From the NCBI GenBank assembly GCA_019637075.1, contig JAHBWI010000003.1, forward strand, positions 372,001-436,000: DNA of 64,000 nucleotides, written 5' to 3'. Each line of letters opens with the position of its first letter. The stretch's first letter is position 1. The notes under the pieces are model-generated. The model saw only the letters and a list, made by a program, of their open reading frames with translations, had not been told where the DNA came from and ran no database searches. A program made the position numbers and the translations under genes. The DNA is from Nitrospiraceae bacterium. Lineage in GTDB: Bacteria > Nitrospirota > Nitrospiria > Nitrospirales > Nitrospiraceae. Positions 56,511 through 63,215 of this stretch are shown here, in pieces.

Positions 56511-57092
56511 TTGCGTCTGATTGTTGGGTTGGGCAATCCCGGCCCCGACTATGCCGAGACCAGGCACAATGTCGGATGCTGGGTCATCGAACGGGCCGCC
56601 GCGCGTTGGTCCATCCGCCTCGCAAGGAAAGGGGTGGCCATGCGCGGGTCGGGCCGGGCCCGCTCCAAGCTGGTCGAGTTGGCCGGCATGCTGGACTGGA
56701 TGAACGTCACCGGTCCTCCCCTCAAGGGCCTCCTGCGCGAGTTGAGCCTCACCGCCGACGACCTCGTGATCGTCCATGACGATTTGGATTTGGAACCGGG
56801 GCGTCTGCGCATCAGACCGTCGGGCGGAAGCGGTGGGCACAACGGCCTCAAATCCATCATCGACGCCCTTGGGACCGCAAACTTCGTTCGCGTGAAGATC
56901 GGGATCGGCCGTCCAGCCCCCGGTCAGGACTCCGCCGATTACGTGTTGGAAGACGTAGGCAAGGACGAGCGGGCGGTATACGATCCCTGCCTGGAACGGG
57001 CCGTGGATGCCTTGGAAATACTGTTGAACCGGGACGTTGCCGCTGCGATGAATCAGTTCAATGTCCGGCCCCGTGAAACGGATCAGACCTGA
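56511..57092 (+). CDS. pth: Peptidyl-tRNA hydrolase
   Basis: 193 residues from TTG 56511, 5 bases after the rplY stop. Family motifs: LIVGLGNPGPDYAETRHNVG with catalytic His19, VIVHDDLDLEPGRLRIR with the conserved Asp, and GGSGGHNGLKSIIDALG. It recycles peptidyl-tRNA. The TTG start is required to reach the conserved N-terminus. Confidence 0.95.
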   Translation: MRLIVGLGNPGPDYAETRHNVGCWVIERAAARWSIRLARKGVAMRGSGRARSKLVELAGMLDWMNVTGPPLKGLLRELSLTADDLVIVHDDLDLEPGRLRIRPSGGSGGHNGLKSIIDALGTANFVRVKIGIGRPAPGQDSADYVLEDVGKDERAVYDPCLERAVDALEILLNRDVAAAMNQFNVRPRETDQT

Positions 57093-57171: not shown

Positions 57172-58263
57172 ATGGGTCTCTGCTGCGGAATGATCGGGCT
57201 CCCGAACGTCGGAAAGACAACGGTCTACAACGCATTGACGGGTGGTGGAGCGCTGGCGGCGAACTATCCCTTCGCCACCGTGGATCCCAACACCGGCGTC
57301 GCCGTTGTCCCGGACCCGCGCCTCCGCGTGCTGACCGATATATTCAAGTCGAAGAAAACGACCTATAGCACCTTGGAGGTCCGTGATATCGCCGGCCTCG
57401 TCGAGGGAGCGAGCAAGGGCGAGGGATTGGGCAACCAGTTCCTGGGCCACATTCGCGAGGTCGATGCGTTGCTGCACGTCGTGCGCTGTTTTCAGGGAAC
57501 CGACGTGGTCCACGTCAGCGGCGGAGTGGATCCCATTCGCGACATCGGCACCATCGAGACGGAGCTGATGCTGGCCGACCTGGAGACGCTGGATCGCCGG
57601 AAGCAGAAGACTGAGAAGAAAGTGCGGGCGGGCGAGAAGAAGGCCGCGGGGGAAGTCGCCTTCATCCAGAAACTGATGGAGTTGCTCGACAAGGGGCAGT
57701 GGCTCGGCAACCTCTCCTATACGCCGGATGAACGGGCCATGCTCACCGAGTTTCAATTGCTCGCGGCAAAACCGGTGCTGTTCGTCGCCAACGTTTCCGA
57801 GAATGCCGCGGCGGATGAGCCGTTGGTCAAGGCGGTGCGGGAGTTGGCCGACAAACGTAGCTCGCGGGTCGTGACGATCTGCGGCCAGTTCGAAGCGGAG
57901 CTGTCTTCCTTGCCTGAGGCCGAGCGCGACGATTTCCTCAAGGAAATGGGTTTGACGGAGTCCGGCTTGGTGCGACTGACCCGCGAAGCCTATACCCTGC
58001 TCAGGATCGTGACATTCTTCACGGCGGGCGAAATCGAATCGCGCGCCTGGCCCATTCCCGAAGGGACCAAGGCGCCGCAAGCGGCCGGAAAGATCCACAC
58101 CGATATGGAGCGGGGATTTATCCGGGCCGAGGTCTACCACTACGACGACCTGCTGGCCTGCGGCAGCGAGGCGAAGGTAAAGGAAAAGGGCTTGTTTCGT
58201 CTCGAGGGCAAAGACTACGTGATCAAAGAGGCAGATATCGTCTACTTCCGCTTCGCCGTCTAG
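57172..58263 (+). CDS. ychF: YchF/OLA1-family ATPase
   Basis: 363 residues. P-loop [18 protein letters not shown], switch region [20 protein letters not shown], and an NVSE sequence (FVANVSENA) where GTPases have NKxD; this NxxE form underlies the ATP preference of YchF. A coiled-coil insert and a C-terminal TGS domain ([42 protein letters not shown]) complete it. It binds ribosomes and is linked to oxidative stress responses. Confidence 0.95.
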
Positions 58264-58386
58264 CAGGTTGCCGATAAGACTGCAAAGTTTGGCGGCGGGG
58301 ACTTGCGGACCAAACGGCCCTTGTGTGCGGTTCTGCATGTGGTAGAGTGAAAGCAGAATCGCAGGATCACGAGCAGAAGGGATGCC

Positions 58387-59592
58387 ATGACGGCGCATCG
58401 ACCTTCACCGCTGTCCCTCTCCGATTTTGAGATTTCCCCCGAGCGCGGATTCCTCCCTGCGACCGATCCCCTCAGCGAAGTGCCGGGTGAGCCGATCTTA
58501 AACGAGATTGCCCTGGACCTTCACCACTTGCTCACCGCGCGCCGGTTCCGCGATTTCATCCACGATCGCCGGGATGTCGTGGGGGCCGTGGCCGACGATT
58601 GGAACCTCGACACCTTCCGGGCCGCCATGCGGACCCTGTCGTTTGCGGGCCATGCGTATGTGTGGGAGGACCCGGAGCATCCTGCAATGCGCCTGCCGGC
58701 AAGTCTTGCGATGCCTTGGTGGCTCGTCGCGAAGCAACTTGGCCGTCCTCCCGTGCTCTCGTACGCCTCCTACGCGTTGCATAACTGGCGGCGTCTGGAT
58801 CCGAGCAAGCCGATCGAGTTGGGTAATATCGTGCTGCGACAGATGTTTCTCGGCGGCCTCGATGAAGAGTGGTTCGTGCTGGTGCATGTGGAAATCGAAG
58901 CGAAAGCGGGCCCGGGGCTGGTGGGCCTGGTCCAGGCTCAGAATGCGGCGGCGGTCAATGATCCGGCCGGGGTGCTGGAAGGACTTCAACGCCTGGCTCG
59001 TGCACAAGAATCGATGCGGGAGACGCTTCTCCGCATGCCCGAGCGCTGTGATCCCTATATCTATTACAGCCGAGTTCGCCCCTACATTCATGGGTGGAAG
59101 AATAATCTCTCCCTTCCCCAAGGGCTTCTCTACGAAGGTGTGGCAGACTATGCCGACCGGCCGCAGCAATTCCGCGGCGAAACCGGCGCACAGAGTGCCA
59201 TTGTCCCCGCGCTCGACGCCGGGTTAGGCATCCGCCATGCCGATGATCCGTTGACTCAATACTTGCAGGAGATGCGCGAGTACATGCCGCCTCGCCATCG
59301 GGCTTTTGTCGCGGCGCTGGAATCCCGAATTGATGCGAGGCAGCGTCCTCTGCTGTTAGGGTATGTGGAGGATCGGAAGGCAACTCACCCGGAACTCTGG
59401 TCTGCCTACTGCATCTGCATAGATCTCTTGGCACAGTTCCGCGAGATTCACGTGGGTTATGCAGACCGCTATATCTTCCGGCAGCACCAATCGCATGCCA
59501 GCAATCCCACCGCAGTGGGGACCGGCGGCACTCCCTTCATGCCCTACCTATCCAAACACCTCGAAGAAACGAAGCGCGCGACGCATTCGTGA
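58387..59592 (+). CDS. Indoleamine 2,3-dioxygenase-family heme protein
   Basis: 401 residues, full length for the family. N-terminal GFLPATDPLSEVPGEP; YALHNWRRLDPSKP; YIYYSRVRPYIHGWKNN with LPQGLLYEGV; FRGETGAQSAIVPALDAGLGI; YLQEMREYMPPRHRAFV; the proximal heme ligand His355 in FREIHVGYADRYI; and the GTGGTPFMPYL loop at 378-388. These match human IDO1 blocks in order. It would open the indole ring of tryptophan (or a related indole) to N-formylkynurenine. No kynurenine-pathway neighbours are present, so the biological role is open. It stands alone downstream of ychF. Confidence 0.85.
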   Translation: MTAHRPSPLSLSDFEISPERGFLPATDPLSEVPGEPILNEIALDLHHLLTARRFRDFIHDRRDVVGAVADDWNLDTFRAAMRTLSFAGHAYVWEDPEHPAMRLPASLAMPWWLVAKQLGRPPVLSYASYALHNWRRLDPSKPIELGNIVLRQMFLGGLDEEWFVLVHVEIEAKAGPGLVGLVQAQNAAAVNDPAGVLEGLQRLARAQESMRETLLRMPERCDPYIYYSRVRPYIHGWKNNLSLPQGLLYEGVADYADRPQQFRGETGAQSAIVPALDAGLGIRHADDPLTQYLQEMREYMPPRHRAFVAALESRIDARQRPLLLGYVEDRKATHPELWSAYCICIDLLAQFREIHVGYADRYIFRQHQSHASNPTAVGTGGTPFMPYLSKHLEETKRATHS

Positions 59593-59664
59593 ATGCTGCT
59601 GAGTTTCGACTGGGGTCAAGAAATCGAGTGGATCGATCGGTGAACTCGCCCGGCGGTGAGGCGA

Positions 59665-60210
59665 TCAGTAGGTGGCGCCGCCGAGGTCTGGATCCGGGGC
59701 CATATTACCCTCCGAGAAGCGGAGGGCAAACGCACGGTTTTCGAAGAAGATGATGCCCCGGTCCTTCATCTCTTCGTAGCGCAACACGATCTCACTCTCT
59801 TCCCCCTGCCAGTTATATTGCTGCACTGGTCCTTTGGATATTTGGCCCGGTGTGCGATCGAGCTGCCCATATTGAGATTGGAAGTAGTCGACGATTTGTT
59901 GGTGGACGGGTTTGCCATGGTAACGAATAATGACTCGCACGAATTGACCGTTATAGGTCTGGAATCGCATCGAGTCGACTTGGGCGGAGCCGAGGTGCAG
60001 CGGTCCCTGCTTGAGTTCGTAGCCCTTGATGTGTTGCGTGTTCTCGACGAGGGCAAATTCTGAGGATTCCGTGAAGGTCGCGCCCCACGGGATGCCTTCG
60101 AACCCTTGCGGGTCGGGGGACATGGGAACGGCGCGGGCGTAGAGGGGGAGCAGTCCGAGGAGGATTCCCGAAAACAAGAGGCCTGAGAGGAGGCGGCGAG
60201 TCGCTGACAT
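59665..60210 (-). CDS. Secreted protein of unknown function, DPxGF/WGA family, copy 3
   Basis: 181 residues from ATG 60210. Signal peptide (LLSGLLFSGILLGLLPLYARA), then SPDPQGFEGIPWGATF, GQFVRVIIRYHGKPVHQQ, YGQLDRTPGQISKGPVQQYNWQG and RGIIFFENRAF. It aligns along its length with the tandem pair at 44-1121, about 59 kb away. The ATG at 60390 would add an unconserved tail. Function is unknown. It is divergent from the PagL-like gene at 60583, and sits in an envelope gene cluster. Confidence 0.78.
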   Translation of the reverse strand: MSATRRLLSGLLFSGILLGLLPLYARAVPMSPDPQGFEGIPWGATFTESSEFALVENTQHIKGYELKQGPLHLGSAQVDSMRFQTYNGQFVRVIIRYHGKPVHQQIVDYFQSQYGQLDRTPGQISKGPVQQYNWQGEESEIVLRYEEMKDRGIIFFENRAFALRFSEGNMAPDPDLGGATY

Positions 60211-60582: not shown

Positions 60583-61110
60583 GTGCTGACCCTATTCGCG
60601 TGGCAGCCAGGTCCGTCGATCTCAGGCGGCGTATCGCTCATGTCCGTCAATGTGCGCTATGGGATCAGCGGCAGCTCGCCCATCGGCGAGCAGACCCAGA
60701 CCGACTTTCACCAATACGACGTAGCGGCGACATTGCGCCTACCCTGGCAGTGGTATCACAGCTCCGGCTGGGGCCTGAGCACGAGGCTCGTTCTGAGCGG
60801 AGGGGCACTGACAGGCGCCAAGGAAACCAACTTGATTGCCACGGCAGTCCCGGTGGTGGCGTTCGGCAGCCAGGATGAGCGGTTTTCCATCGATATGGGT
60901 GGCGGCGGTGCCCTGCTCAGCGACTACAAGTTCGGTGAACAGAATTTCGGCGGGCCCTTTCAATTCGTCTGGACCTTCGGCGTGAATCTCGGCTTGTTCG
61001 GACCGGTCGGGTTGGCCTATCATTTCCAGCACTACTCCGATGCCACGATCTATGGACACGATAGCCGCGGGGTCGATCTGCACCTCTTCGAAGTCGGCTA
61101 CCGGTTTTGA
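60583..61110 (+). CDS. PagL-like lipid A 3-O-deacylase family outer-membrane protein, copy 1
   Basis: At least 175 residues. Outer-membrane barrel pattern ending in FEVGYRF, with the family's His-x-Ser site in FQHYSDATIYGHDSRGVDLH near the C-terminus and LPWQWYHSSGWGL before the first strands. The residue aligned with the PagL catalytic Glu appears to be Asp (GVD). The true start is unclear: GTG 60583 cuts the signal peptide short, whereas the open frame upstream (RLPRIRSGLVLWFVLTLFAW, via CTG 60547 or ATC 60511) would give a complete one. PagL removes a 3-O-acyl chain from lipid A. A paralogue lies at 62646. Confidence 0.68.
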   Translation: MLTLFAWQPGPSISGGVSLMSVNVRYGISGSSPIGEQTQTDFHQYDVAATLRLPWQWYHSSGWGLSTRLVLSGGALTGAKETNLIATAVPVVAFGSQDERFSIDMGGGGALLSDYKFGEQNFGGPFQFVWTFGVNLGLFGPVGLAYHFQHYSDATIYGHDSRGVDLHLFEVGYRF

Positions 61111-62645: not shown

Positions 62646-63215
62646 GTGCCCCGAGGTTCGTTTGGAAGTGTGATGATGTTCGTCGGTGCGTTCCTCTGGG
62701 GAGTCGCATGGACGGCCTATGCCGGTGACACCGAACTCATGGCGGTCGGCCTCCGGGGAGGCTTGAGCGTCAAGGGGAGTTCACCTCTTGGGGAAGAGCA
62801 ACGCCGCGTCTTCGCCGCCGGCGATGCCCTCGCAATGTGGCGCTTGCCGTGGAGTTGGTACGGCGCTTCCGGATGGGGTGTCGGCACGCGGCTTCTCGCG
62901 AGTGTCGGCGTGTTGGAAGGAGAAGGGGCAACGGCGGGCGTGCTCACGGCCGTCCCCTTGATTGCATTCGGCGATCGGGACGGGCGCGTGACATTGGACG
63001 CCGGGGCCGGAGGCGCGTTGCTCACTCGGCACCGATTCGGTCTTCAAGACTTCGGCGGGCCGTTCCAATTCGTCGGCACTGCCGGACTCAGCGCAGTCCT
63101 CATCCACCCTTTCACCGTGGGTTACCGTTTTCAGCACTACTCGGATGGCACGATCTACGGCCGCGACAGCCGCGGAGTCGATCTGCACATGATTGAGTGG
63201 ACCTATCGATTCTAG
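62646..63215 (+). CDS. PagL-like lipid A 3-O-deacylase family outer-membrane protein, copy 2
   Basis: 189 residues from GTG 62646. Signal peptide (VMMFVGAFLWGVAWTAYAG), LPWSWYGASGWGVGTRLL, LLTRHRFGLQDFGGPFQFVG and the C-terminal site YRFQHYSDGTIYGRDSRGVDLHMIEWTYRF. It aligns with copy 1 (60583) along its length and shares the Asp in place of the PagL Glu. It likely trims lipid A or is a diverged barrel of related fold. Confidence 0.75.
   Translation: MPRGSFGSVMMFVGAFLWGVAWTAYAGDTELMAVGLRGGLSVKGSSPLGEEQRRVFAAGDALAMWRLPWSWYGASGWGVGTRLLASVGVLEGEGATAGVLTAVPLIAFGDRDGRVTLDAGAGGALLTRHRFGLQDFGGPFQFVGTAGLSAVLIHPFTVGYRFQHYSDGTIYGRDSRGVDLHMIEWTYRF

Follow-up and report, generated by a model that had tools for sequence, protein, structure and literature searches.

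The coding sequence at positions 58387..59592 (+ strand) of the window, by which we mean the whole 64,000-nucleotide stretch of Nitrospiraceae DNA that was analysed, encodes an intact member of the indoleamine 2,3-dioxygenase (IDO) family, 401 amino acids long, as established by Pfam, sequence and structure comparison. Judging from its sequence and from that of its relatives, the product is, with a probability of roughly 0.6, a working IDO heme enzyme that would convert L-tryptophan and O2 to N-formylkynurenine, acting alone and outside NAD synthesis, for tryptophan turnover.

An intact protein of the IDO family and its predicted active site

The open reading frame begins with ATG and has no internal stops. 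The Pfam profile for IDO (PF01231) matched the protein with an E value of 7.2e-86 and 289 bits in comparison to a cut-off of 26 bits. The alignment is full-length, running from residue 11 to residue 397 of the protein and covering positions 2-411 of the 412 in the profile. The same Pfam scan found no second family in the protein at E ≤ 0.001, the TDO family PF03301 included, which distinguishes it from TDO, and none of the NCBIfam models matched it. TDO and IDO carry out the same class of reaction. The initial annotation had called this gene a full-length IDO homologue and had proposed a search with the IDO-family HMM; in that search PF01231 was the best-scoring family without a competitor, and the claim was borne out further by the structural comparison.

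The closest solved chains by sequence were IDO2 (198 bits) and IDO1 (139 bits). An AlphaFold model built from 25 sequences reached a pTM of 0.83 and a mean pLDDT of 77, and it superposed on IDO2 with a Z score of 43.7 (2.4 Å over 381 residues) and on IDO1 with a Z score of about 41 over about 370 residues, so that in the model the predicted IDO fold spans both domains. The loop of residues 364-382, which carries the GTGGT motif, and residues 264-268 had pLDDT values below 50 and are poorly modelled. The vertebrate IDO2 and IDO1 chains thus share with the protein the family and the full-length fold, as well as the heme ligand, Arg231, the Thr379 loop, Tyr126 and Phe163, while they differ from it in overall sequence (26-35% identity in structural alignments) and at three positions, where the protein has His for Thr or Ser at 167, Tyr for Phe at 226 and Gly for Ala at 264. 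A promoter and terminator scan of positions 58200-59750 detected nothing and was uninformative.

To compare individual residues, we used an alignment of 79 Nitrospirota rows, 6 haloarchaeal rows, 4 other prokaryotic rows and 2 vertebrate chains (IDO1 and IDO2). His355 (codon 59449..59451, + strand), which had been proposed from the sequence as the proximal heme ligand, pairs in this alignment with IDO1 His346 and is the predicted ligand here as well. The GTGGT loop singled out in the same proposal (residues 378-382, 59518..59532, + strand) aligns with the Thr379 loop of IDO1, with Thr379 falling at the same position, and Arg231 (codon 59077..59079, + strand), the predicted holder of the substrate carboxylate, aligns with IDO1 Arg231. 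Among the Nitrospirota rows that have a residue at the site, and in IDO1 numbering, conservation was complete for Tyr126 (78/78), Phe163 (79/79), Arg231 (79/79), Asp274 (79/79), Arg343 (78/78), His346 (78/78) and Thr379 (77/77). In the 29 loci of the whole-genome set the key residues were again kept in 29/29, save Thr379 in one copy; this sole exception is the copy of genome G034, which has an internal stop and misses the Thr379 loop.

According to PMC5758539, the counterparts of IDO1 Ser167, Arg231 and Thr379 in human TDO are His76, Arg144 and Thr342; in TDO the Arg and Thr hold the carboxylate and the ammonium of tryptophan, and a hydrogen bond links the histidine and the indole nitrogen. 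The conservation of Arg231 and Thr379 therefore favours an amino-acid substrate such as tryptophan. By analogy, His355 of the Nitrospiraceae protein would hold the heme, Arg231 would grip the substrate carboxylate and Thr379 of the flexible loop the ammonium, and the indole ring of L-tryptophan would be opened with O2 to give N-formylkynurenine.

Distribution, inheritance and genomic neighbourhood

IDO genes were found in 38 of 99 relatives, in three of which (G034, G040 and G049) the copy is broken or a remnant. Across the phylum 66 of 295 genomes have one, all 66 of them within one order; Candidatus Nitrospira defluvii and N. moscoviensis are among the carriers. The view that IDO-type proteins are uncommon in bacteria is consequently only partly correct, the gene being common within this lineage. 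Bacterial IDOs have been studied since at least 2011, as PMC4191572 notes in citing Yuasa et al. Among the titles and opening parts of abstracts on Nitrospira together with IDO or kynurenine, no paper on a Nitrospira IDO was found.

For comparison of loci, 80 of the 175 found, from named genomes, were kept; 79 of these have Nitrospirota-type titles (one of them, L043, is titled Nitrosospira) and one is from Fimbriimonadales. Among named organisms, the closest relatives of the protein belong to Nitrospira, with 75-78% identity to the Candidatus N. defluvii group, and the tree placed the protein with that group (support 100/99, 5 rows). The Nitrospirales IDOs in the tree formed one clade to which the Fimbriimonadales protein was sister, with thin sampling outside the order. 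Vertical inheritance within the order accompanied by repeated loss is the simplest reading of the distribution. In genus g6, broken or remnant copies were seen in G034, G040, G049 and G319, in the form of an internal-stop copy and of C-terminal fragments, and because of these copies the loss of IDO appears to be still continuing in that genus. The gene is under purifying selection: the median dN/dS was 0.098 over 283 pairs with 0.05 < dS < 1.2, from 77 coding sequences. We also considered an origin from mobile elements; a phage origin was rejected on 0 matches in 50,697 phage records, and a plasmid origin was rejected with matches in 10 of 72,556 plasmid records and a top identity not above 45%.

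Upstream of the IDO gene lie a peptidyl-tRNA hydrolase gene (56511..57092, + strand), which we take to be pth from its family, and, between pth and IDO, the gene for the GTPase YchF (57172..58263, + strand). The pth gene, which is the upstream neighbour in defluvii-type loci, was upstream of IDO in 16 of 80 related loci and ychF in 0 of the 80 searched, while ahcY was found upstream in 36/80 and metK in 33/80, the distance from ahcY to IDO ranging from about 0.1 to 2.4 kb. Genes nearby in other loci encode a Y-family polymerase, an alcohol dehydrogenase, a DUF6502 protein, a secretin, a Mur-ligase-like protein or a MeaB GTPase. On these counts an operon with the upstream genes was rejected; the IDO gene is outside any conserved operon, and ychF is not a functional partner of IDO. 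Secondary metabolism, one of the purposes that the initial annotation had left open, finds no support in the neighbourhoods examined. The junction between pth and IDO was either tight or occupied by other short ORFs in related loci, which suggests a site at which insertions vary. Downstream of the gene we observed two paralogues of the PagL-type lipid A deacylase (PF09411) at 60583-61110 (69 bits) and 62646-63215 (67 bits), with a gene for an outer-membrane beta-barrel protein between them.

Kynurenine pathway genes and the possible fate of the product

In the source genome (4.06 Mb in 22 contigs), profile searches gave no kynureninase match at E ≤ 0.001 and no TDO. The kynureninase cut-off was passed by 0 of 99 genomes, while the same search gave matches in 7 of 14 control genomes; TDO was found in 4 of 99 genomes, and 3-hydroxyanthranilate dioxygenase (3-HAO) in 0 of 99, the control genomes being likewise at 0. 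NadA, by comparison, is encoded in the source genome, in 92/99 genomes and in 34/35 of the IDO carriers. The remark that no kynureninase lies nearby can thus be widened to the whole genome. The parallel remark on formamidase holds for the surroundings of the gene, where none is close, but a formamidase-like protein of family PF04199, scoring below the arylformamidase cut-off, is encoded on another contig; this formamidase search covered the PF04199 type. IDO is therefore an orphan of the kynurenine pathway in its own genome.

These results bear directly on NAD synthesis, which had been listed as a possible purpose. In eukaryotes either TDO or IDO opens the kynurenine route to NAD (PMC4217691). 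The absence of kynureninase and TDO together with the presence of NadA contradicts this purpose and makes a NAD role for the IDO very unlikely, and the idea that the protein starts a de novo route from tryptophan to NAD is one to which we give next to no credence.

It could also be supposed that IDO is the first step of a full route from tryptophan to anthranilate whose kynureninase was overlooked by the search. Some relatives do have kynureninase-like genes adjoining a TDO-family gene, and in two of them, G012 and G085, this pair occurs in addition to IDO. In G012 the TDO-family gene is followed by the kynureninase-like gene at L152:4708-6908, and in G085 the same order is found on contig C3 near 55-57 kb (G085:C3); two further genomes, G067 and G073, have the pair without IDO. 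The G012 TDO-family gene passed the Pfam cut-off but scored under the NCBIfam equivalog cut-off (238 vs 391 bits), as did the kynureninase-like gene (152 vs 246 bits). However, in these IDO carriers the kynureninase-like genes sit with TDO and at a distance from IDO: in G012, where IDO and TDO are on a single 4.73 Mb contig, the pair and the IDO gene are far apart, at 0.35 Mb vs 1.58 Mb. Given also that no genome out of 99 passed the kynureninase cut-off and that the source genome had no match, while half of the controls did, we regard the anthranilate route as improbable. The two genomes suggest a role for their IDO apart from supplying a kynureninase. They are, in addition, an exception that qualifies the statement in PMC4191572 that TDO and IDO occur in bacteria exclusively of each other.

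In the preferred reading, that of a stand-alone tryptophan dioxygenase, IDO would thus feed neither NAD synthesis nor a kynureninase route; a hydrolase that is either unlinked or of broad specificity might turn N-formylkynurenine into kynurenine, which might then, as a guess, be exported or transaminated. No consistent partner gene that would consume N-formylkynurenine or kynurenine was found across the loci, and this counts against that reading. So does the example of IDO2-type proteins, which are intact IDOs and yet can favour substrates other than L-Trp (PMC4191572).

A gene for a hydrolase of family PF04199 recurs in the neighbourhood of IDO. In 24 of 80 loci it is within about 2.7 kb, placed in either of two ways (7 divergent upstream and 17 convergent downstream); of the 52 loci that extend 3.5 kb or more to each side, 17 have it. 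One of the PF04199 proteins adjoining IDO scored 115 bits with isatin hydrolase A in comparison to 58 bits with kynurenine formamidase. Such observations would fit a broad indole oxygenase, the substrate of which would be indole, a substituted indole or an environmental tryptophan derivative and the role of which would be detoxification or signal quenching, and the product of which would in part of Nitrospira pass to a neighbouring exported PF04199 hydrolase that is more isatin-hydrolase-like than kynurenine-formamidase-like. That ancestral IDO was a broad indole oxidiser is a published hypothesis (PMC4191572).

Several results stand against this proposal. The invariance of Arg231 and Thr379 in the Nitrospirota rows that have the residue points to an amino acid rather than to indole. 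The PF04199 gene is absent from six genomes with intact IDO (G027, G036, G041, G046, G051 and G053), and within the family it is found in 22/28 in comparison to 21/32 genomes with and without intact IDO (Fisher p 0.39); over the 99 genomes the association reached a Fisher p of 0.03, uncorrected for kinship. The picture also varies between genera: in g6 the hydrolase is present in 4/4 genomes with intact IDO and in 0/4 without, while in g10 five of seven intact-IDO genomes lack it and another has a stop-containing fragment that was counted as present. A fixed partnership with IDO is therefore unsupported, given 24/80 loci and the family-level p value, although its proximity to IDO in those loci hints that the two are connected in some members of the genus. 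In the source genome the PF04199 protein is single-copy, encoded on contig C1 (L149:6893-8962) and unlinked to IDO, and it matched the KynB model TIGR03035 with 100 bits in comparison to a cut-off of 223, that is, below equivalog level. Its N-terminus resembles, by eye, a lipoprotein signal, so that the protein would sit in another compartment. The gene is divergent from an ORF whose translation, also judged by eye, is RuBisCO-like. Taken together, the anchoring residues favour an amino-acid substrate such as tryptophan over the indole purpose named earlier, and we consider a broad indole oxygenase a candidate of low probability.

The distal histidine, related enzymes and meaning for Nitrospira

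At position 167 the protein has a histidine (codon 58885..58887, + strand) that aligns with Ser167 of human IDO1 and thereby with His76 of human TDO. All 89 prokaryotic IDO rows have His at this position (Nitrospirota 79/79, haloarchaea 6/6, and 4/4 of the others, namely Sphingobium, two Methylocystis and Fimbriimonadales), while human IDO1 has Ser and the IDO2 chain Thr; the comparison covered prokaryotic rows and these two vertebrate chains. The serine of human IDO1 is a non-defining feature of the family, absent from the protein described here. As the prokaryotic proteins compared combine His167 with Arg231 and Thr379, they carry the residue trio of TDO on an IDO chain, and by analogy with His76 of human TDO the distal-pocket His167 probably forms a hydrogen bond with the indole nitrogen. 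The effect of His in an IDO scaffold is not certain, since the change of Ser167 to His in human IDO1 dramatically destabilised the ferrous-oxy complex (PMC5758539).

Two groups of plasmid IDOs outside the phylum share these residues. Haloarchaeal plasmid IDOs (Haladaptatus, Natronosalvus, Natronococcus and Halomicrococcus) belong to the same family with 32-37% identity and have His167, Arg231, Thr379 and the proximal His; unlike the gene described here, they adjoin kynU in 6/6 annotated loci, a count that leaves out the seventh match, the unannotated Natronococcus sp. AD-5, and an alpha/beta hydrolase gene in 4/6, and they have Gly or Ala at position 227. A tryptophan route is thus compatible with an active site of this kind. 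Alphaproteobacterial plasmid IDOs (Sphingobium and Methylocystis) are closer, with 39-45% identity and the same His167, Arg231 and Thr379, and no kynurenine gene is annotated alongside in the 3 loci; in the two Methylocystis proteins, which are shorter (L155 and L159; 358 and 372 aa), the residue aligned with Asp274 of IDO1 is Val or Ile.

Members of Nitrospira rank among the major oxidisers of nitrite, and the source organism, given its kinship and the NxrA-like sequence in its genome, probably oxidises nitrite as well. Another idea is that the protein serves nitric oxide or nitrite chemistry as a heme protein, with tryptophan oxidation being secondary. NxrA-like sequences were present in 31/35 genomes with complete or near-complete IDO in comparison to 44/64 others (Fisher p 0.03, uncorrected for kinship), and human IDO1 is reported to have nitrite reductase activity (PMC9220124, citing Lim et al. 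2019). Yet 44 of the 75 NxrA carriers are without intact IDO, the haloarchaeal IDOs that adjoin kynU have retained these active-site residues too, and the substrate-anchoring residues would be superfluous for NO chemistry, all of which leaves little room for this idea.

A broader reading that joins these lines is quite speculative and, in our judgement, has only a slim chance of being right. His167 would be ancestral in IDO and the Ser of IDO1 later, so that IDO and TDO would both have started out holding tryptophan by one and the same set of three residues; nitrite-oxidising Nitrospira would have kept an enzyme of the ancestral type, for neither catabolism nor NAD, as a stand-alone oxygenase for nitrogen-oxide chemistry or for the release of kynurenines to neighbours.

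The role of the distal residue has been approached in published work by mutating human IDO1 and TDO, and the prokaryotic IDOs with His167 offer natural enzymes for probing it. The enzyme itself is an ordinary one, a prokaryotic addition to the known IDO family; what it adds to the physiology of Nitrospira is a conserved dioxygenase under selection, for the product of which no consistent consuming enzyme was found.
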